Below, one piece after another: positions 22,761-50,117 of a stretch of 64,000 nucleotides of DNA. Location: contig NZ_JAATEJ010000006.1 of NCBI RefSeq assembly GCF_012034175.1, positions 1-64,000 of the forward strand, read 5' to 3'. Position numbers and translations under genes: made by a program. Within the stretch, counting starts at the first letter, position 1, and each line of letters opens with the position of its first letter. The DNA is from Actinacidiphila epipremni. Its GTDB lineage: Bacteria; Actinomycetota; Actinomycetes; Streptomycetales; Streptomycetaceae. The notes under the pieces are model-generated. The model did no database searches. It saw nothing but the letters and a program-made list of their open reading frames with translations, and was not told where the DNA came from.

Positions 22761-23813
22761 TCAGGCCGACTCGCGCTCCACCAGCGTGGTCTTGAAGATC
22801 ACCGAGCGGATGTCCTGCGACGGGTCGTCGATCAGCGCCAGCAGCAGCCGGGCCATCTCCGCCGCCATGTCCTCCACCGGCTGGCGCACCGTCGTCAGCA
22901 GCGGCCGGGACGCCTGGGCCGCGCTGCTGTCGTCGAAGCCGATCACCGCGACGTCCTCCGGCACCCGCCGCCCCTGCTCCCGCAGGACGTGCAACGCCCC
23001 TTGCGCCATCAGGTCGTTGGCGACGAAGACCCCGTCGGTGTCGGGATGGCACTCCAGCAGCTCGCGCATCGCCCGCTCCCCGCCCACCTGCGTGAAGCTG
23101 CCCTCGACGCTCGGCACGTACGCGTGCCCGTGCTCGGCCATCGCCTCCCGGAAACCGGCCAGCCGGTCCTGCCCGGCCGGCGAGTCGAAGGGGCCGGCGA
23201 TCGTGGTGATCCGCCGGCAGCCGCGCGCCAGCAGCCGCTCGGCGGCGAGCTTCGCGCCCGCCTGCTGCGCCACGTCCACGTAGCTGATCGGGATCGCCGT
23301 CGACGGCCGGGCGAACAGCACGGTCGGCAGCCCCGCCTCGGTCAGCAGGAACGGCAGCGAGTCGCCCGGCGCTATCGACACCAGCGCCACCCCGTCGATG
23401 TGCTCCTGGCGCAGGTTGGCCACCAGCGCGTGCCGGGCGTCCTCGGAGTCGGCGAGCATCAGCACCGGGTGCACCCCGCGTGGCCGCAGCACCGTCAGCA
23501 GCCCGCCGACCACCCGGCCGAAGAACGGGTCGCTGAAGACCTGGCCGAGGAACGGGTCGTCGCGGGTGCGGTGCGCGGGGACGGAGAAGACCAGGGCGAT
23601 CGAGTCGGTGCGCCGGGTCACCAGCGTCCTGGCCGCCCGGTTGGGCACATAGCCGGTCGCCTCGACCGCCTCCTGGACGATCCGCTGGATCTCCGGGTCC
23701 ACGTTGCGCGTGCCGTTGACCACGCGGGAGACCGTCGCGCGCGACACCCCCGCGGACCGCGCGACGTCTTCCAGAGTGGGCTGGCGCGGCCCCGGCGGAC
23801 GGCTGCTCGTCAT
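22761..23813 (-). CDS. LacI-family regulator, likely of the GAGAGCGCTCTC regulon
   Basis: This 350-residue LacI repressor has its HTH at residues 12-36 (PTLEDVARSAGVSRATVSRVVNG) and hinge helix near YVPNRAARTLVTRRTDSIAL. The ligand-binding fold spans about 65-345. The HTH and hinge closely resemble the CebR/BglR group of Streptomyces, whose operator is TGGGAGCGCTCCCA. I chose the ATG at 23813. A -10-like TATAAC ends nine bases before it, so the mRNA is nearly leaderless. The promoter holds a perfect GGAGAGCGCTCTCC (23836-23849), implying autoregulation. It sits next to GH16 and GH3 genes with the same site. The inducer is probably a beta-gluco-oligosaccharide. Confidence 0.92.
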   Translation of the reverse strand: MTSSRPPGPRQPTLEDVARSAGVSRATVSRVVNGTRNVDPEIQRIVQEAVEATGYVPNRAARTLVTRRTDSIALVFSVPAHRTRDDPFLGQVFSDPFFGRVVGGLLTVLRPRGVHPVLMLADSEDARHALVANLRQEHIDGVALVSIAPGDSLPFLLTEAGLPTVLFARPSTAIPISYVDVAQQAGAKLAAERLLARGCRRITTIAGPFDSPAGQDRLAGFREAMAEHGHAYVPSVEGSFTQVGGERAMRELLECHPDTDGVFVANDLMAQGALHVLREQGRRVPEDVAVIGFDDSSAAQASRPLLTTVRQPVEDMAAEMARLLLALIDDPSQDIRSVIFKTTLVERESA

Positions 23814-23821
23814 GGGTGCAG

Positions 23822-23849
23822 TTATACCATGCGGCGGAGAGCGCTCTCC
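23822..23849 (-). promoter_or_regulatory. LacI autoregulatory operator and promoter
   Basis: The perfect 14-bp palindrome GGAGAGCGCTCTCC at 23836-23849 occupies the -35 area of a promoter whose -10 is TATAAC (23822-23827, minus strand). Binding would exclude RNA polymerase. Confidence 0.72.
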
Positions 23850-23956: not shown

Positions 23957-26900
23957 TCAGGCGTACACCCCGAACTCGTACAGCGAGTCGCCGTACGCGG
24001 TGCCGCGCTGCCCGATCAGCACCCGCACATAGCGCCCGGAGCCGCTGACGTCGAAGGTGTCGACACCGCCGGCCCCGGTCGACGTCGAGTACACCGTCGT
24101 CCAGTTGCTCGCGTCGTTCGACAGCTGCACCTGGTACGCCTTCCCGTACGCCGCCTCCCACGCCAGCTGCACGTGCTTGACGGCCGTGACCGCGCCCAGG
24201 TCCACCTGCACCCACTGCGGGTCGCTCCAGTCGCTCGCCCACCGGCTGCTCATGTTGCCGTCGGTGGCCATGGACGGCGTGCACGGGCAGCCGCCGGTCG
24301 GGTCGGTCTGGTACGACGAGGCGGTCGTCGGCCTGCCCAGCGCCACGTTCGTCCCGTCGACCTTCGGGGCGACCACCCGGAAGGACTTGGTCTCGATGCC
24401 GACGTTGCCGTGCCCGTCGTAGGCGTAGACGTAGACCTTCCACACCCCGAGCGTCGTCGGCGCGGTCGCCGTGAACTGCCCGTTCCCGGTCTGGGTGAAG
24501 GTCACCTGGCGCAGCCCCGTGCCGCCGTCGACGTACTTCGAGGAGTACATCAGCTGGTAGCGGACCGTGTCGCCGTTGGGGTCGGTGGCCGGCGCCGACA
24601 CCGTGAACTGCCCGCCGGCCGGTACCGCGGTGGCGTTCGACACCGTCATCGACCCGATCACCGGCGGGGTGTTCGCCTGCGGCGAGCCGCCGTAGTCCTT
24701 GGCGACCGAGTAGTACGCCAGGCGCTTCCAGCCGCTCGGGCGGACGTTGAACCACACGCCGCCGAAGTCGTTCTCCTCGCCGTAGTTGAACATCGTCGCC
24801 CCGAGGCCGACGCCGGTGTGCCCCACGACGCAGTTCCACGCCGAGACGTACGCGTCGCGCTTCTGCGTGTCCGTCGGCTCGGTCGGCACCCCGTTCGCGT
24901 CGTTCGGCACCTCCCACTCGCCGGCCTCACCGGACTCCGTCACGATGTACGGCTTGGTGTAGCCGCCGTTGATCCAGTCCTGCTTGACGTTGCACACCGC
25001 CCCGTAGGAGTTGACCGCGTAGAGGTCGAGGGAGGGCGTGTACTGCTTGTAGTACGGCCACGCGCCCGTCCACGCGTCGGTCGACGTCACCGGGTGGTTG
25101 GGGTCGATCGCGTGGATCGCCTGCGCGACCTGCTCCACGAACTGCGCGTAGGCGATGCGCTGCTGCTCGATCGCCGCGCCGGAGTAGTGGTCCTGCGTGG
25201 TGAGGATGACCTCGTTGCCGACGTCCCACATCAGCACGCCGGGATGGTTCTTGTAGGTGGTCACCCAGTTCTTGATGTCGTTGAGGGTGTTGGTCTTGTA
25301 CGCGGTGTCGTTGACGTAGTCGGCGCCCTGGTTGAGCCAGAAGCCGCTCACGACCTTCATCCCGTACGCCGCCGCCGCGTCCAGCAGCGGCTTGCTGGTC
25401 GCGTCGGTGCCCCAGGTGCGCAGCGTGTTGACGCCCATCGCCTTCAGGTCGCGCATGTGGGCGTCGGCGGTGGAGGTCGCCGGGCCCCATGTCATGCCCT
25501 TGACCTGCCAGGGCTTGCCGTCCACCGTGAGCTGCCAGTTGCCCTGGCCGCCGGTGACGTGGACGTTGCTCGGCGCGGTCGGCACCGGCGGGTCGGTCAG
25601 CGGCGCGGGGGCGGTGCCGGTGGTCTGCGACACCGTCACGTTGTCGATGCTCAGCACACCGCCGGAGGAGGTGCCGGCGGCCGGCGAGGTGCAGCCGCAG
25701 ACCGCATTGGGGTAGGAACCGCCGATGCGCAGGCTGAAGTCGAGGTAGAGGCCGTGGTGCACGGCGGCGTTCCAGGTGGACACCCCGACCTGCGACTCGC
25801 TGACCTGCCAGATCTGGTTGCCGTCCAGATACCAGCGGATCTGCTCGTCGGAGGTGGTGCGGTCGATGATCTCGGAGTAGGTGTGGTAGCCGCTCTGGCA
25901 GCCGGTGCAGGTCGCCAGGCCGCTCGTCAGGCCGTTGTACTCGGCGCAGTTGCCGCCGGGCGCGGTGCCGCAGTGCAGCGTCGCGGAGACCTGGCTGCGG
26001 CCGTTGACGTCCTCCATGATGTCGCTCTCGCCGACCGCCGGCCATGAGTTGAGGTCGCCGCGGTAGGCGGCGCCCATCGCGCGGAAGGACGGCCAGTAGC
26101 CGAGCGCCTGGGCGACCTGCGGCTGCTTGAGCGTCGCGGAGATCTGCAACTGGCCGCCGGCCGGGGCGGTGAAGTCGGCGCGCTTGGTCTCGATCCGGCC
26201 CGAGGTCCAGGCGGTGCCGGACTTCAGGGCGGTGAGGTTGAGGTGGCCGCTGCCGTCGAGGCCGACGTTGGCGGTGGAGTCGGTGGCCGTCTCGACCTCG
26301 CCGGTGCCCCAGTTGGCCGGGCCGCCGGGGTAGGCGGTGCCGGTGTCGGTGATCCAGTTGTTGGCGTCGGGCCTGGTGTTGGCCGCGCCGTTGAAGTCGT
26401 CGCTCCACAGGGTCTGCCAGTTGCCGGGCGGCGGGGTGCCGGTGCCGCCGTTGCCGCCGCCGTTGCCGCCGCCGTCCGCGCCGCCGTCACCGCCGCCCGT
26501 GGTGCCGCCGGTCGTGCCGCCGGTGCCGGCCGTGCCGTAGACCTGGAACTCCCACAGCGAATAGCCGTAGCCGTTGCTGCGGACCGTGCCGTTCATCCGC
26601 ACATAGCGGCCGGAGCCGGTCGCGGTGACGGTCTCGGTGCCGCCGGGGGAGGAGGTGGTGGCGTAGATCTGCGTCCAGTGCGTGGCGTCGTCTGACACCT
26701 GGATCTGGTACGCCTTGGCCGGGTTCTCCCAGGTGAGCACCACTTTGCTGAGGGTGGAGGCGGCGCCGAGGTCGACCTGGAGCCACTGCGGGTCGGACCA
26801 GGCGCTGGCCCAGCGGGTGGTGGCGCTGCCGTCGACCGCCGCGGAGGCGGGGTAGCCGGCGCCCTCGGTGGAGGAGGCGGTGGCCGGCCTGCCCTGCGAG

Positions 26901-27046
26901 AGCAGGGTGTCGGCGGCGTGCGCGGGGGTGGTCGGGACGGCCAGCGCGTACAGCGCCAGGCCCACGGCCACCAGGAGCAGGAACGCGGCACGCAGCGGCG
27001 GAGGCAGGGCTCCGGCCCGCGGGCGTGCCGAGGGTGACGCATCCAT
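23957..27046 (-). CDS. secreted two-domain glycosidase: CBM32-GH16-TIM barrel-CBM32
   Basis: This is a 1029-residue secreted enzyme. Residues 1-44 are a signal peptide ending AHA. Residues 45-172 are an F5/8C (CBM32-like) domain, followed by a Gly-rich linker (173-205). Residues 208-474 are a GH16 domain with the catalytic triad Glu340-Asp342-Glu345 in ESDIME. Residues about 500-785 are a clan-A TIM barrel resembling the GH2 C-terminal or GH5 type. It has a likely acid/base Glu612 in DVGNEV and nucleophile Glu704 in IVTESGE. An Ig-like module (about 793-895) and a second F5/8C domain (896-1029) follow. GH16 suggests endo-beta-1,3(4)-glucan cleavage; the barrel specificity is open. Two catalytic domains in one chain is the odd feature. 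GGAG precedes the ATG by six bases. Confidence 0.9.
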   Translation of the reverse strand: MDASPSARPRAGALPPPLRAAFLLLVAVGLALYALAVPTTPAHAADTLLSQGRPATASSTEGAGYPASAAVDGSATTRWASAWSDPQWLQVDLGAASTLSKVVLTWENPAKAYQIQVSDDATHWTQIYATTSSPGGTETVTATGSGRYVRMNGTVRSNGYGYSLWEFQVYGTAGTGGTTGGTTGGGDGGADGGGNGGGNGGTGTPPPGNWQTLWSDDFNGAANTRPDANNWITDTGTAYPGGPANWGTGEVETATDSTANVGLDGSGHLNLTALKSGTAWTSGRIETKRADFTAPAGGQLQISATLKQPQVAQALGYWPSFRAMGAAYRGDLNSWPAVGESDIMEDVNGRSQVSATLHCGTAPGGNCAEYNGLTSGLATCTGCQSGYHTYSEIIDRTTSDEQIRWYLDGNQIWQVSESQVGVSTWNAAVHHGLYLDFSLRIGGSYPNAVCGCTSPAAGTSSGGVLSIDNVTVSQTTGTAPAPLTDPPVPTAPSNVHVTGGQGNWQLTVDGKPWQVKGMTWGPATSTADAHMRDLKAMGVNTLRTWGTDATSKPLLDAAAAYGMKVVSGFWLNQGADYVNDTAYKTNTLNDIKNWVTTYKNHPGVLMWDVGNEVILTTQDHYSGAAIEQQRIAYAQFVEQVAQAIHAIDPNHPVTSTDAWTGAWPYYKQYTPSLDLYAVNSYGAVCNVKQDWINGGYTKPYIVTESGEAGEWEVPNDANGVPTEPTDTQKRDAYVSAWNCVVGHTGVGLGATMFNYGEENDFGGVWFNVRPSGWKRLAYYSVAKDYGGSPQANTPPVIGSMTVSNATAVPAGGQFTVSAPATDPNGDTVRYQLMYSSKYVDGGTGLRQVTFTQTGNGQFTATAPTTLGVWKVYVYAYDGHGNVGIETKSFRVVAPKVDGTNVALGRPTTASSYQTDPTGGCPCTPSMATDGNMSSRWASDWSDPQWVQVDLGAVTAVKHVQLAWEAAYGKAYQVQLSNDASNWTTVYSTSTGAGGVDTFDVSGSGRYVRVLIGQRGTAYGDSLYEFGVYA

Positions 27047-27203: not shown

Positions 27204-27259
27204 GGGAGAGCGCTCTCTCAGTGGCCCCGATGGTTGCGGCAACGTTTCCGGGGTGTCAA
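27204..27259 (-). promoter_or_regulatory. promoter and LacI-type operator of the GH16/TIM-barrel gene
   Basis: On the minus strand TTGACA (27254-27259) is followed after 18 bp by AACCAT (27230-27235). The palindrome GGGAGAGCGCTCTCTC (27204-27219) lies just downstream. A small inverted repeat GTTGC-G-GCAAC (27233-27243) overlaps the -10 and could be a second site. The layout is the same as before the beta-helix gene at 104-2734. Confidence 0.68.
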
Positions 27260-27503: not shown

Positions 27504-27558
27504 TTGACAGGGCGTCGGCCCGAGGGTGAAGGTAAGCGCCTGGGAGAGCGCTCTCCCA
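27504..27558 (+). promoter_or_regulatory. GH3 promoter with perfect 18-bp palindrome
   Basis: TGGGAGAGCGCTCTCCCA (27541-27558) is a perfect 18-bp palindrome, the best match in the window, 115 bases before the GH3 ATG. A TTGACA at 27504-27509 precedes it; the -10 is weak. The 27260-27503 stretch between the divergent promoters shows no gene. Confidence 0.72.
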
Positions 27559-27672: not shown

Positions 27673-30381
27673 ATGACCATGATCACCCCCGGGTCCGTGC
27701 CCGCGCCGCAGTCCGCCGCCGCGCCGGCGATCACCGAGGAGCGGCTCGACGCGCTCGTCGCCCGGCTCGACCTGCCCGCCAAGGTCCGGCTGCTGTCCGG
27801 CGCGGACACCTTCCGCACCGCCGCGGAACCCGCCGTGGGGCTGCGCGCGATGGGCGTCTCGGACGGCCCGGCCGGTGTCCGCGGCGAGCGCTGGGACGAG
27901 CGCGACACCTCGCTCGCGCTGCCGTCGCCGACCGCGCTCGCCGCCGCCTGGGACGACGAGCTGGTCACCGCGCTCGGCGGGCTGCTCGCCGCCGAGGCCC
28001 GCCGCAAGCGGATCCATGTGCTGCTCGCCCCGACCCTCAATCTGCACCGCACGCCCGCCGCCGGCCGGCACTTCGAGTGCTTCTCCGAGGACCCGCTGCT
28101 CACCGGCCGCACCGCCGCCGCCTTCGTCCGCGGCGTCCAGGCCGGCGGCGTCGCCGCCACCGCCAAGCACTATGTCGCCAACGACTCCGAGACCGACCGC
28201 CTCACCCTCGACGCCCGGCTGGACGAGCGCACCCTGCACGAGCTCTACCTCGCGCCCTTCGAGGCCGCGGTACGCGCCGGGGTGTGGGTCGTGATGTCCG
28301 CCTACAACCGGGTGGACGGCGTGACGATGTCCGAGAGCCCGCTGCTGGCCGAGCCGTTGAAGGGCGCGTGGGGCTTCGACGGCGTGGTGGTCTCCGACTG
28401 GGGCGCGGTCCGCAGCACCGAGCCGGCCGCGCTCGCCGCGCAGGACCTCGCGATGCCCGGCCCGCACCCGCTGTGGGGCGGACCGCTGCTCGCCGCGGTC
28501 CGCGACGGCCGGGTGCCGGAGTCGGCGATCGACGCGAAGGTCCGCCGCCTCCTCCGCCTCGCCGCCCGCGTCGGCGCCCTCGACGCCGCCCCGGCGCCCG
28601 CGCCCGAGCCCGCCGCGGTGGTGGGGCCTGAGGCCGGGGTGTCGCCGCAGGCCGCTGCCGCCGCGCCGGCCGGGCGCGGGTCGGCCGCGGTAATGGGGCC
28701 CCCTTTCGATGCGTCCGCGCCGGCCGGTGCCGCGCCCGGGCTTTCCGCCGGGCCGGTGGCCGCGCAGTCTGCCGGCGGGGATGCCGCGTCGGCCGCTGCC
28801 GTGGCAGAAACCGCCGGGGCGCGGGGGTTGTTGCGGCGGGCGGTTGCCGCCGGGTGCGTGCTGGTGCGCAATGACGGCGGGGTGCTGCCGCTGGCGCCGG
28901 GTGGCGGGTTGCGGCGGCTTGCGGTGGTCGGGCCCCATGCCGCAGCCGCGCGGGTCCAGGGCGGCGGGAGCGCCGCGGTCTTCCCCGCAGGCGTCGTCTC
29001 ACCGCTCGACGGCATCCGGGAAGCGCTCTCCGGCACCGGCACCGAGGTCGTGTACGCCGAGGGGGTGCGGCTCGCCGGCCGGCCGACGCCGCTGCACCCC
29101 GGCAACGCCCGCGACCCGCGCACCGGCGAGCCCGGCGTGCTGGTGCGCTACCTCGCCGCAGACGGCACCGAGGTGTGCGCGGAACACCGGCTCAGCGGGC
29201 GCGTCCTGGAGCCCGGCGACGCCCCCGGCCTCGCCCGTACCGCCGCCCGCGTCGAGGTCAGCGCGCTGTTCACGCCGGACGTGCCGGGGGAGTGGCGGCT
29301 GTCGGTCGTGGGCCTCGGCGCGGTCGCGCTGCACGCGGACGGCGAGGCGCTGATCGACACCGTGGTCGTCCCCGAGTCCGACGACCCCACCTACGTCCAC
29401 GTCTCCCCGTCCTTCCGCACCGCCGCCCGCAAGGCCGTGCCGGGCGAACCGCTGCACCTGGTCGCGACCCGGGAGCTCGCCCCGGGGCTCGGGCTCGCCG
29501 TCGCGCTGGCCGCCGACCCGCCGCGGCTCGACGCGGACGCCGCCCTCGCCGCGGCGGTCGCGTGCGCCCGCGGCGCCGACGCGGCGGTCGTCGTGGTCGG
29601 CACGACCGACGAGATCGAGAGCGAGGGCAGCGACCGCGTCTCGCTCGCGCTGCCCGGCCGGCAGGACGAGCTGGTCGCCGCGGTCGCCGCCGCCAACCCC
29701 CGTACCACGGTGATCGTCAACAGCGGCGGCCCGGTCGAACTGCCCTGGCGGGAGAGCGCTCCCGCAGTGCTGCTGTGCTGGTTCCCCGGCCAGGAAGCCG
29801 GCCACGGCCTCGCCGACGTGCTCTTCGGCCGCGCCGAACCCGGCGGCCGGCTCCCCACCACCTGGCCCGCGCGCGCGGACGGCGCCCCGCTGCCCTCCAC
29901 CACGCCCGACGCCGGGGTGCTGCGCTACACCGAGGGCCCGTACGTCGGCCACCGCGCCTGGCGCCGCGCCGGCGCCGAACCCGCCTACTGGTTCGGCCAC
30001 GGCCTGGGCTACACCACCTGGGCCTACGAGACCATGACGGTCCGTCCGCTCGCCCCGGAACCCGGTGACGCCGGCGGGCCCGGCGCCCTCGCCCGGGTGA
30101 CGGTACGCAACACCGGGGCGCGCCCCGGGCGGGAGGTCGTCCAGGTGTACCTGACGACCGGGCCCGACGACCACGACGACGGAGGCCCCCGGCTCGCCGG
30201 CTACGCCGCCGTGCACGCGGCGCCCGGCGCCGCCGCGGTCGCCGAGGTGCGGATCGCGCCGCGCGTCCTGCAACGCTGGTCACCCGGCGAGCGGCGGTGG
30301 ATCCCGCGCCCGGGCCCGTACACCCTGCACGCCGGCCCCTCCGCCGCCCGGCAACCGCTCTCCCGGCCGCTGGACGCCTGA
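27673..30381 (+). CDS. GH3 beta-glucosidase with PA14 insert, cytoplasmic
   Basis: This 902-residue GH3 enzyme is read from the ATG at 27673 (GAAGGG just upstream). The N-terminal barrel (about 20-300) has KHYVAND (165-171) and the nucleophile Asp242 in VVVSDWGA. The C-terminal alpha/beta sandwich (about 383-760) is interrupted by a PA14 module (about 480-590), as in beta-glucosidases of the Kluyveromyces type. A fibronectin III-like domain ends the protein. There is no signal peptide, so it should hydrolyse imported oligosaccharides inside the cell. Residues 305-382 are an Ala/Pro/Gly-rich linker longer than usual. A GGGAGAGCGCTCCC site also occurs inside the gene at 29750-29763. Confidence 0.93.
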   Translation: MTMITPGSVPAPQSAAAPAITEERLDALVARLDLPAKVRLLSGADTFRTAAEPAVGLRAMGVSDGPAGVRGERWDERDTSLALPSPTALAAAWDDELVTALGGLLAAEARRKRIHVLLAPTLNLHRTPAAGRHFECFSEDPLLTGRTAAAFVRGVQAGGVAATAKHYVANDSETDRLTLDARLDERTLHELYLAPFEAAVRAGVWVVMSAYNRVDGVTMSESPLLAEPLKGAWGFDGVVVSDWGAVRSTEPAALAAQDLAMPGPHPLWGGPLLAAVRDGRVPESAIDAKVRRLLRLAARVGALDAAPAPAPEPAAVVGPEAGVSPQAAAAAPAGRGSAAVMGPPFDASAPAGAAPGLSAGPVAAQSAGGDAASAAAVAETAGARGLLRRAVAAGCVLVRNDGGVLPLAPGGGLRRLAVVGPHAAAARVQGGGSAAVFPAGVVSPLDGIREALSGTGTEVVYAEGVRLAGRPTPLHPGNARDPRTGEPGVLVRYLAADGTEVCAEHRLSGRVLEPGDAPGLARTAARVEVSALFTPDVPGEWRLSVVGLGAVALHADGEALIDTVVVPESDDPTYVHVSPSFRTAARKAVPGEPLHLVATRELAPGLGLAVALAADPPRLDADAALAAAVACARGADAAVVVVGTTDEIESEGSDRVSLALPGRQDELVAAVAAANPRTTVIVNSGGPVELPWRESAPAVLLCWFPGQEAGHGLADVLFGRAEPGGRLPTTWPARADGAPLPSTTPDAGVLRYTEGPYVGHRAWRRAGAEPAYWFGHGLGYTTWAYETMTVRPLAPEPGDAGGPGALARVTVRNTGARPGREVVQVYLTTGPDDHDDGGPRLAGYAAVHAAPGAAAVAEVRIAPRVLQRWSPGERRWIPRPGPYTLHAGPSAARQPLSRPLDA

Positions 30382-49014: not shown

Positions 49015-50117
49015 GGCGTGGGCGTCCCCTCGGTCGGCTGCGGCTTCTGCTGCCCGGCCGGCGGCGCGGTCGTCCGCGCCGCTGCGCCCGCCGTGCGGCC
49101 GGCCTCCTGCGCGTTCCAGCGGCTCATCGCCCGGCGCAGCGACCGCGACTCGGCGAATCCCAGCCGGGCGGCGGCGCGTTGGGCCGAGCCGGTGCCGGCG
49201 TGGCGCAGGCCGGCCGCGCACTCCCGGCGGACGGCGTCCAGTTCGGCGCGCCAGGTGGTGCCGGACTCCGCGAGCCGCCGCTGGAGGGTGCGCGGGCTGA
49301 CCGCGAGCCGGCGTGCGGTCGTGGCCAACGACGGGCGGCCCTCGGCGAGTTGCGCCATGATCGCGGGCCGCAGCCCCGGCACCGGCCCGGCGGCGGGCGT
49401 CCGCGGCGGCGGGAAGGCCGCGGCGTTGCGCCGGATGATCGCGGCGAGCGCGGGATCGGCGGTGGCCGTCGGCAGGCGCAGGGCGCTGCGGTGCAACGTG
49501 ACGGTGTCGGCCCCGGCCCCGAACTCCACCTGCGCGGTGCCGAACCGGTCGGTGTGGGCCGTGGTGCGCGGCGGCGCGGCGTGCGCGAAGGTCACCCGTA
49601 GTGGGGAGAGCGCTCTCCCGGTGCTGTTCCGCATCTGCTCCACCAGCACTCCGAGGACGAACTCGGCTACCACCCAGCGCAGTTCGCTGTCCGGCCGGAG
49701 GATGCCGTAGGTGACGGTCACCTCGTCGCCGTCCTCCTGCACGCTGAGCGTCGAGCTGCTGCTCAGCAGGTGCAGATGCGAGGCGGCGAGCGCCAGCCCC
49801 TCACCCAGGGTCGGCGCGGTGCTCATCAGATAGTCGACGAGGTCGAACTGCCCGTGCCGGAACTGCCCGGCGGCCAGCAGCCCCGCGTCCGCCCGCCCGG
49901 TGCGGCCCAGCACCTCGCGCCACAGCTGGAAGGTCCCGGACGACGGGCTGCGCGCGGTGTCCGGGTCCCGCAGCACACTCGGCACCCCGGCTGCCCGCAC
50001 CAGCGACTCGGCCTCGGCGCCGCTGCGCGAGGACGCCCTGGCGATGAAGCGCGGCACCACGACGCACTCGGTGAGCGCGGCGATCGGCGGCGGTTCTGCG
50101 GTCGTGGCTACGGACAT
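49011..50117 (-). CDS. AraC-family transcriptional regulator (OruR/ArgR-like)
   Basis: This 368-residue regulator has an arabinose-operon-type N-terminal domain (about 20-210; GQFDLVDYLMSTAPTLGEGLALAASHLHLL is typical of the AraC_binding_2 family). The C-terminal AraC DNA-binding domain is at about 250-345 (SLATTARRLAVSPRTLQRRLAESG, AARLGFAESRSLRRAMSRWN). GAGGTG lies six bases before the ATG at 50117. The effector is unknown. A perfect LacI-type palindrome (49604-49619) lies inside the coding region. Confidence 0.9.
   Translation of the reverse strand: MSVATTAEPPPIAALTECVVVPRFIARASSRSGAEAESLVRAAGVPSVLRDPDTARSPSSGTFQLWREVLGRTGRADAGLLAAGQFRHGQFDLVDYLMSTAPTLGEGLALAASHLHLLSSSSTLSVQEDGDEVTVTYGILRPDSELRWVVAEFVLGVLVEQMRNSTGRALSPLRVTFAHAAPPRTTAHTDRFGTAQVEFGAGADTVTLHRSALRLPTATADPALAAIIRRNAAAFPPPRTPAAGPVPGLRPAIMAQLAEGRPSLATTARRLAVSPRTLQRRLAESGTTWRAELDAVRRECAAGLRHAGTGSAQRAAARLGFAESRSLRRAMSRWNAQEAGRTAGAAARTTAPPAGQQKPQPTEGTPTP
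49604..49619. promoter_or_regulatory. perfect 16-bp LacI-type palindrome inside the AraC gene
   Basis: GGGAGAGCGCTCTCCC is a perfect palindrome inside the coding sequence, far from any promoter I can see. It may act as a roadblock or decoy site for the LacI-family regulator. Confidence 0.6.

Follow-up and report, generated by a model that had tools for sequence, protein, structure and literature searches.

The closest described counterpart of the system reported here is the 1,3GUL of Bacteroides uniformis, a SusC/D locus in which three separate genes code for GH16_3, GH158 and GH3 enzymes (PMC7157763). BuGH158 (6pal), the characterised member of the GH158 family, is an endo-beta-1,3-glucanase that cuts beta-1,3 links and accepts a beta-1,6 branch at subsite -1, and its activity was abolished by mutation of N136, E137 and E220 (PMC7157763). 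The same combination of GH16, GH158 and GH3, together with the same barrel plus Ig fold and the same N-E and E catalytic pair, was found in the soil actinomycete Actinacidiphila epipremni (assembly GCF_012034175.1, contig NZ_JAATEJ010000006.1, positions 1 to 64,000 of the forward strand, the 64,000-nucleotide stretch referred to here as the window), at a gene on the minus strand coding for a secreted protein of 1029 amino acids. Unlike in B. uniformis, however, GH16 and GH158 are fused in one chain with two CBM32 modules, and the GH3 gene lies divergently beside this gene, which is itself adjoined by a LacI gene. The solved barrel closest to that of the window protein, GH158(Pro) (entries 9oro, 9p25, 9p26 and 9p2f, soaked with laminaritetraose), is by contrast a single-enzyme entry.

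We propose, with a probability of roughly 0.55, that the GH158 barrel of this protein cuts the glucan and that its GH16 module is turning into a glucan-holding one. The working unit would be the barrel with its Ig module, Glu612 acting as acid/base and Glu704 as nucleophile of the retaining mechanism expected from the family. The GH16 would derive from a laminarinase of GH16_3 type that was still active and intact when the fusion arose. The Trp of subsite -1 would have been lost first, followed in some branches by the acid/base or the nucleophile, without loss of the fold or of the remaining conserved aromatics of the cleft. Most likely the module would be on its way to becoming an in-chain holder of beta-glucan, one that retains glucan chains close to the barrel, and the two CBM32s may anchor the enzyme to fungal-wall-type polysaccharide. 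A precedent exists in the non-catalytic beta-glucan-binding proteins of subfamily GH16_4 in metazoans and fungi, in which the GH16 fold was kept for binding after loss of catalytic residues, although that is a eukaryotic subfamily with about 9% of its members affected (PMC6827312), whereas the module described here is bacterial and shares its enzyme with another catalytic domain that is intact. We infer the activities, the binding role and the regulation discussed below from sequences, predicted folds, residue losses and operator sites.

Modules of the fused enzyme

The gene and its parts are the following, all on the minus strand:

23957..27046, minus: whole gene, secreted CBM32-GH16-GH158-Ig-CBM32 protein, 1029 amino acids (open reading frame, domain searches, orthologues)
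26912..27046, minus: signal peptide region, residues 1-45 (translation; cleavage read by eye)
26531..26911, minus: N-terminal CBM32 (discoidin), residues 46-172 (Pfam; 4zy9, 1e-36; TMt 0.91)
25619..26434, minus: GH16 module, residues 205-476 (phmmer; 3dgt and 7eo3, TMt 0.89)
26081..26083, minus: Arg322, replacing the conserved Trp of subsite -1 (alignment with controls; SCLam W129 by motif spacing, PMC7961093)
26012..26029, minus: GH16 catalytic strand E340-S-D342-I-M-E345 (residue check, alignment)
25727..25729, minus: Arg440, replacing an Ala kept in 74/74 controls (alignment)
24677..25558, minus: GH158-type barrel, residues 497-790 (phmmer, structure model and its fold comparison)
25211..25213, minus: Glu612, putative acid/base, aligned with BuGH158 E137 (alignment)
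24935..24937, minus: Glu704, putative nucleophile, aligned with BuGH158 E220 (alignment)
24365..24676, minus: Ig-like module, residues 791-894, aligned along with the barrel to the Ig domain of GH158 structures (phmmer, fold comparison)
23960..24361, minus: C-terminal CBM32, residues 896-1029 (Pfam)

The reading frame runs uninterrupted from 27046 to 23957, and because Actinomycetota and Chloroflexota contain orthologues in which the modules follow in the same order, a chance reading frame or annotation artefact can be ruled out. The translation begins with a Sec-type signal that ends in AHA before AD, as read by eye, and a Gly-rich linker joins the N-terminal CBM32 to the GH16.

The barrel and Ig module together are a GH158 unit, and thus belong to a family of endo-beta-1,3-glucanases, an activity that the family relationship suggests for this member too. 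In phmmer searches against solved chains, 9oro, which is named GH158, was matched with E values of 3e-38 to 7.5e-39 and 6pal with 8.9e-25 to 1.9e-25, the latter match extending through the Ig module. The structure predicted for residues 489-894 (pLDDT, the predicted local distance difference test, 93.0; pTM, the predicted template modelling score, 0.90; 51 sequences) is a (beta/alpha)8 barrel against which a C-terminal Ig-like domain is packed, and across both domains it aligned best with 9oro (Z 44.0, 29% identity over 381 residues) and 6pal (Z 39.5). The next entry was a GH2 beta-glucuronidase with Z 27.2, for which reason GH2, GH42 and GH72, the Pfam matches of the barrel (33.1, 16.7 and 15.0 bits), were rejected in favour of the far closer GH158 structures. 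An actinobacterial barrel with only a weak GH2 match in Pfam is thus assigned to GH158. Residues N611, E612 and E704 align by phmmer with BuGH158 N136, E137 and E220 (numbered by our own arithmetic as PDB chain index plus 22), and all three are kept in 110/110 barrel sequences, a count that includes the window and duplicates and comprises 95 distinct sequences. Relatives were here the best 80 of 155 confirmed, and our counts cover these nearer ones.

For the GH16 module, 7eo3 was matched over residues 201-477 (5.3e-77) and 3dgt, an endo-1,3-beta-glucanase of Streptomyces sioyaensis, over residues 205-474 (5.1e-72). Both are the closest solved GH16 structures, with 45-46% identity and the beta-jelly-roll fold of the family, and the E-x-D-x-x-E motif is present in the window copy as E340, D342 and E345. 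The Pfam GH16 model detects neither this module nor L002, the non-fused relative closest to it, and only a weak SKN1/KRE6 match is returned. The discoidin stretches at the two ends match the F5/8 type C model of Pfam (1.4e-46 and 6.7e-44). By sequence and fold, the N-terminal one resembles the chitosan-binding type of CBM32, its closest solved relatives being the modules DD1/DD2 of the Paenibacillus IK-5 glucanase/chitosanase; in a GH16 enzyme from Paenibacillus, a discoidin domain has been reported to bind polysaccharides and to raise the antifungal effect of that enzyme (PMC2789033).

The architecture given by the original prediction is therefore borne out, with a GH16 carrying Glu340/Asp342/Glu345, a clan GH-A barrel with candidate catalytic Glu612/Glu704, an Ig-like module and discoidin domains at both ends, the five residues being at exactly the numbers given beforehand. 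The family of residues 500-785, which it had left to be classified, is GH158.

Residue losses in the fused GH16 modules

The window copy carries Arg322 at the position of the conserved Trp of subsite -1, which by motif spacing we map to W129 of SCLam, a residue that stacks against the -1 glucose and guides the path of the chain between subsites -1 and +1 (PMC7961093). It also carries Arg440 in place of an Ala that is found in all 74 aligned non-fused GH16s. The WPA...WXX...WPX pattern, described as largely conserved in the GH16_3 laminarinase subfamily (PMC6827312), is thereby broken: its first and third Trp are present (W318 in WPS and W335 in WPA) and the second is Arg322. The module clearly descends from the GH16_3 laminarinase kind, but because of this second position we do not count it among the active members of that subfamily; nor is it a pseudo-GH16 in the sense of a lost catalytic carboxylate.

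Among 83 distinct GH16 modules fused to the barrel, W322 is kept in 11, E340 in 79, D342 in 83 and E345 in 50, so that the Trp is absent in 72, the acid/base in 33 and the nucleophile in four. All four residues are found in 11 members. In 35 others, the window copy among them, the carboxylates are kept and W322 is replaced (by R in 32, K in 2 and Y in 1); 33 combine R322 with a replaced E345 (T in 26, A in 4, M in 2 and S in 1), and four, all from Thermogemmatispora, present S322 with Q340. Every GH16 devoid of the acid/base therefore has R322 (33/33), and every one devoid of the nucleophile has S322 (4/4). The control consisted of the non-fused GH16 matches in the genome of the window and 30 relatives (31 genomes), in total 116 rows at 114 places, made up of the 72 best-scoring rows and another 44 rows that represent 42 places. 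W, E, D and E are kept in all 112 readable places of this control, as they are in 3dgt and 7eo3, which also keep the Ala at position 440 and, unlike the window GH16, are not fused to a barrel in their entries. Two places, both among the later 42 (of which 40 keep all four residues), were set aside, one without the region (L299) and one frame-shifted at the catalytic motif (L278); the latter comes from a fragmented assembly (G015) and may be a sequencing error or a pseudogene. In total, the acid/base or the nucleophile is gone in 37/83 fused members, against 0.7% of GH16_3 members with a lost catalytic residue (PMC6827312), and the catalytic residues of the barrel are never lost. The unchanged second catalytic domain thus serves as an internal control for the decay of the GH16.

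The rest of the module has been largely retained. In members devoid of the acid/base, Y317, W318, W335, H358 and W425 are kept in 33/33, and W231 and W280 in 32/32 with a residue there; of the 63 positions invariant in the control, 40 are retained by 97% or more of the fused members, including the cleft-region W318, W335 and His358. Three facts nevertheless speak against a mere holding role. E340, D342 and E345 are all present in the window copy, which may therefore still be active; the whole triad is kept in 46/83 fused members; and the nucleophile and Asp342 persist in 33/33 members devoid of the acid/base, which simple binding does not demand.

The first two of these facts would fit an enzyme in which both GH16 and GH158 cut beta-1,3-glucan in synergy, as a fused form of the separate B. 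uniformis genes, and so would the divergent GH3 gene, given that GH16, GH158 and GH3 share one locus in that species (PMC7157763). We regard two working glucanases in one chain as a tentative and rather doubtful alternative, since Arg322 and Arg440 lie in the cleft region and were seen in no control sequence examined at those positions, and since the module was retained in the 37 relatives from which a catalytic residue is gone. The claim of the original prediction that two glycosidase domains share one chain accordingly stands as to the barrel and the presence of the GH16 carboxylates, but not as to both acting as catalysts in sequence, and we found no support for its suggested beta-1,6 specificity or transglycosylation; the links cut by BuGH158 are beta-1,3 (PMC7157763). 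In the glucan-holding interpretation, the window copy would be an intermediate stage, with three carboxylates present, Trp replaced by Arg and Arg440 added, from which weak or no GH16 hydrolysis is expected.

The lineage of the window has added D436, S438 and R440 on one strand, where alternate residues should face one side. It is conceivable, though unlikely, that with Arg322 they form a cleft re-tuned to a different, perhaps charged or substituted, glycan that the intact carboxylates cut. R440 in 20 of the 35 Trp-less members with an intact triad, and D436 in 20, make a consistent pattern rather than drift, and in the R322 group with intact carboxylates the GH16 has its highest ratio of non-synonymous to synonymous substitution (see below); however, relaxed constraint would equally be expected to raise that ratio, and the other genes found with the operator described below are of beta-1,3-glucan or wall-mannan type, with no charged-glycan gene among them.

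A second adaptation may have occurred in the large clade devoid of the acid/base (L085-L118), which gained E389 (30/33) and E402 (29/33). That the acid/base function moved to one of these residues, so that those GH16s still cut, seems very improbable to us. The gains are indeed specific, given that D occupies position 389 in one further member and that triad-intact relatives have T and Q in 46/46, but two members from the lineage of the window that are also devoid of the acid/base (L050 and L031) belong, going by the pattern of the clade, to the few members that have no E389, and the adjacent residue 346 varies (D in 23, N in 5 and G in 5).

Order of the losses and spread of the fusion

On the GH16 tree, rooted with non-fused sequences, a branch with support 100 sets the fused modules apart. 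Since the first-branching ones (L064, Catenulispora, L068 and L059) are all of the W-EDE state, that is, with W322 and the triad, the GH16 was probably intact at the time of fusion; 34 Trp-less rows of Actinomycetota type come next (support 91/94). A tree built from the barrel alone implies two changes in the acid/base, one in the nucleophile and one in the presence of GH16, the GH16-less paralogues (the second class and the phylum-draw loci described below) not being on this tree. Three clearly independent catalytic losses were considered and dropped, because two of the barrel-tree events may be one on the GH16 tree, where L050 and L031 sit with the large clade devoid of the acid/base (support 93/88); we therefore claim two or three events, as the trees suggest. 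An approximately unbiased (AU) test on the grouping of L050 and L031 with Actinacidiphila gave p 0.195, which neither rejects nor shows it. The disagreement between the two trees over these members could reflect an exchange of the GH16 module.

The ratio of non-synonymous to synonymous substitution (dN/dS) was computed by NG86 for pairs with dS <1.2, and in a high-GC genome only the comparison among these values is meaningful. Its medians for GH16 and barrel were 0.276 and 0.221 in the clade devoid of the acid/base (31 members), 0.403 and 0.270 in the R-EDE group (32 members), and 0.217 and 0.102 in the W-EDE group (11 members). The fused GH16 is, by these estimates, still under purifying selection. 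A decaying pseudo-domain without function is not favoured, because there are no internal stop codons and the GH16 values are 0.22-0.40 in all three groups.

We give about even chances to the broader proposal that a bacterial glycosidase domain is here becoming a carbohydrate-binding module, by way of an intact fusion, the change of Trp to Arg and the later loss of acid/base or nucleophile in two or three lineages, with the fold and much of the cleft kept by selection. The passage from enzyme to carbohydrate-binding module is rarely visible in steps, and this one family holds a presumed intact start, an intermediate and broken ends; if the proposal is true, the series W-EDE, R-EDE (the window), R-EDT/A/M/S and S-QDE would be a ladder from enzyme to lectin-like module. 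An annotation reading "GH16 plus barrel, two catalytic domains" would credit 37/83 of the distinct homologues examined with too many activities.

In the fetched loci, GH16 precedes the barrel in 98/110 barrel reading frames, and the remaining 12, without GH16, come from Kribbella, Pseudonocardiaceae-type genera and one Streptomyces. A second barrel class in the genus of the window, at about 60% identity, lacks GH16 in the same reading frame in 8/10 fetched loci, one of the others being fused and one cut by a contig end. GH16-less GH158 barrels of this second class (L209-L216 and L220-L228, about 54-64% identity) have the order barrel-Ig-CBM32, with or without an N-terminal CBM32. Among 396 genomes drawn from the phylum, nine had a match at E 1e-20 or better, and only that of the window was fused; the GH158 barrel loci of other genomes in the phylum were without GH16 in 9/9. 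The GH16-GH158 fusion is thus a minority form in this draw, and because GH158 barrels without GH16 are common (8/10 and 9/9 loci), the barrel needs no GH16 to hold its substrate, which also weighs against the glucan-holding interpretation. A literature search for such a fusion, or for GH158 in actinobacteria, returned no fused enzyme in titles and the beginnings of abstracts; GH158 is listed among the laminarin families counted in the Streptomyces genomes of PMC11475409.

Operator and neighbouring genes

Around the fused gene, a palindromic operator is repeated before three genes:

27206..27217, no strand: operator GAGAGCGCTCTC, 160 bp before the start of the fused gene (motif search)
27544..27555, no strand: the same operator, before the divergent GH3 gene (motif search)
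27673..30381, plus: GH3 gene, 902 amino acids from the start used (PF01915, 5.2e-56; PF00933, 5.6e-38)
23837..23848, no strand: the same operator, before the LacI ATG at 23813 (motif search)
22761..23813, minus: LacI-family regulator, 350 amino acids, next gene downstream of the fused gene (PF00356, PF13377)

No signal peptide was seen by eye in the GH3 protein. Allowing up to one mismatch, the window has 11 copies of the operator where 0.51 would be expected; exact copies number 22 in the whole genome, compared with 0 for the control. Fourteen of these 22 sites are at the fused gene (1), GH3 (5, one shared with GH92), GH55-like (2), GH64 (1), GH16 (3) and LacI (2) genes, as assigned by inspection of the nearest reading frame, four of them requiring a start codon downstream of that of the longest frame. 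The site also recurs before the fused gene beyond chance: in the 76 relatives with readable upstream DNA (four of the 80 were left out), it was found exactly in 57 and with at most one mismatch in 67, compared with four hits in 214,815 bp of coding sequence. Eight of the nine relatives devoid of it are Chloroflexota. Within the fetched flanks, LacI-type genes were present in 63/80 relatives and GH3 genes in 18/80.

Because the operator is common to GH3, GH55-like, GH64, GH16 and LacI genes, the fused gene appears to belong to a beta-1,3-glucan regulon, in which a LacI-family repressor would act on these sites, so that this gene would be induced together with the divergent GH3 and further beta-1,3-glucan enzymes. 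The palindrome resembles the CelR-like LacI palindromes of actinobacteria; a study of cellulose noted the cores TGAGAGCGCTCTCA and GGAGAGCGCTCTCC ahead of GH16, GH5-called, GH3, CBM32 and LacI genes (PMC3377646). In that study they are side notes to cellulose regulation, whereas in the present case they point to a set of beta-1,3-glucan genes to which the fused enzyme belongs; a known but unassigned LacI palindrome would thus be tied to beta-1,3-glucan use.

The other eight exact sites have neither a glucan enzyme nor a LacI gene as neighbour and lie near MFS, ABC exporter or PAS-SpoIIE genes or inside reading frames; sites of this kind include window position 49606 and loci L249, L252, L253 and L255, and at L253 two of them, 59 bp apart, precede a reading frame without a Pfam match. 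Elsewhere in the window, the minus-strand gene at 104-2794 codes for a secreted protein in which two CBM32s are combined with a C-terminal unit matching 4pew over 547 residues (5.8e-278), and the operator at 2891-2902 stands 97 bp before the start of its longest reading frame. We take 4pew, whose entry is titled putative secreted protein, to be a GH55 enzyme, and both GH55-like genes with operators are named after it.

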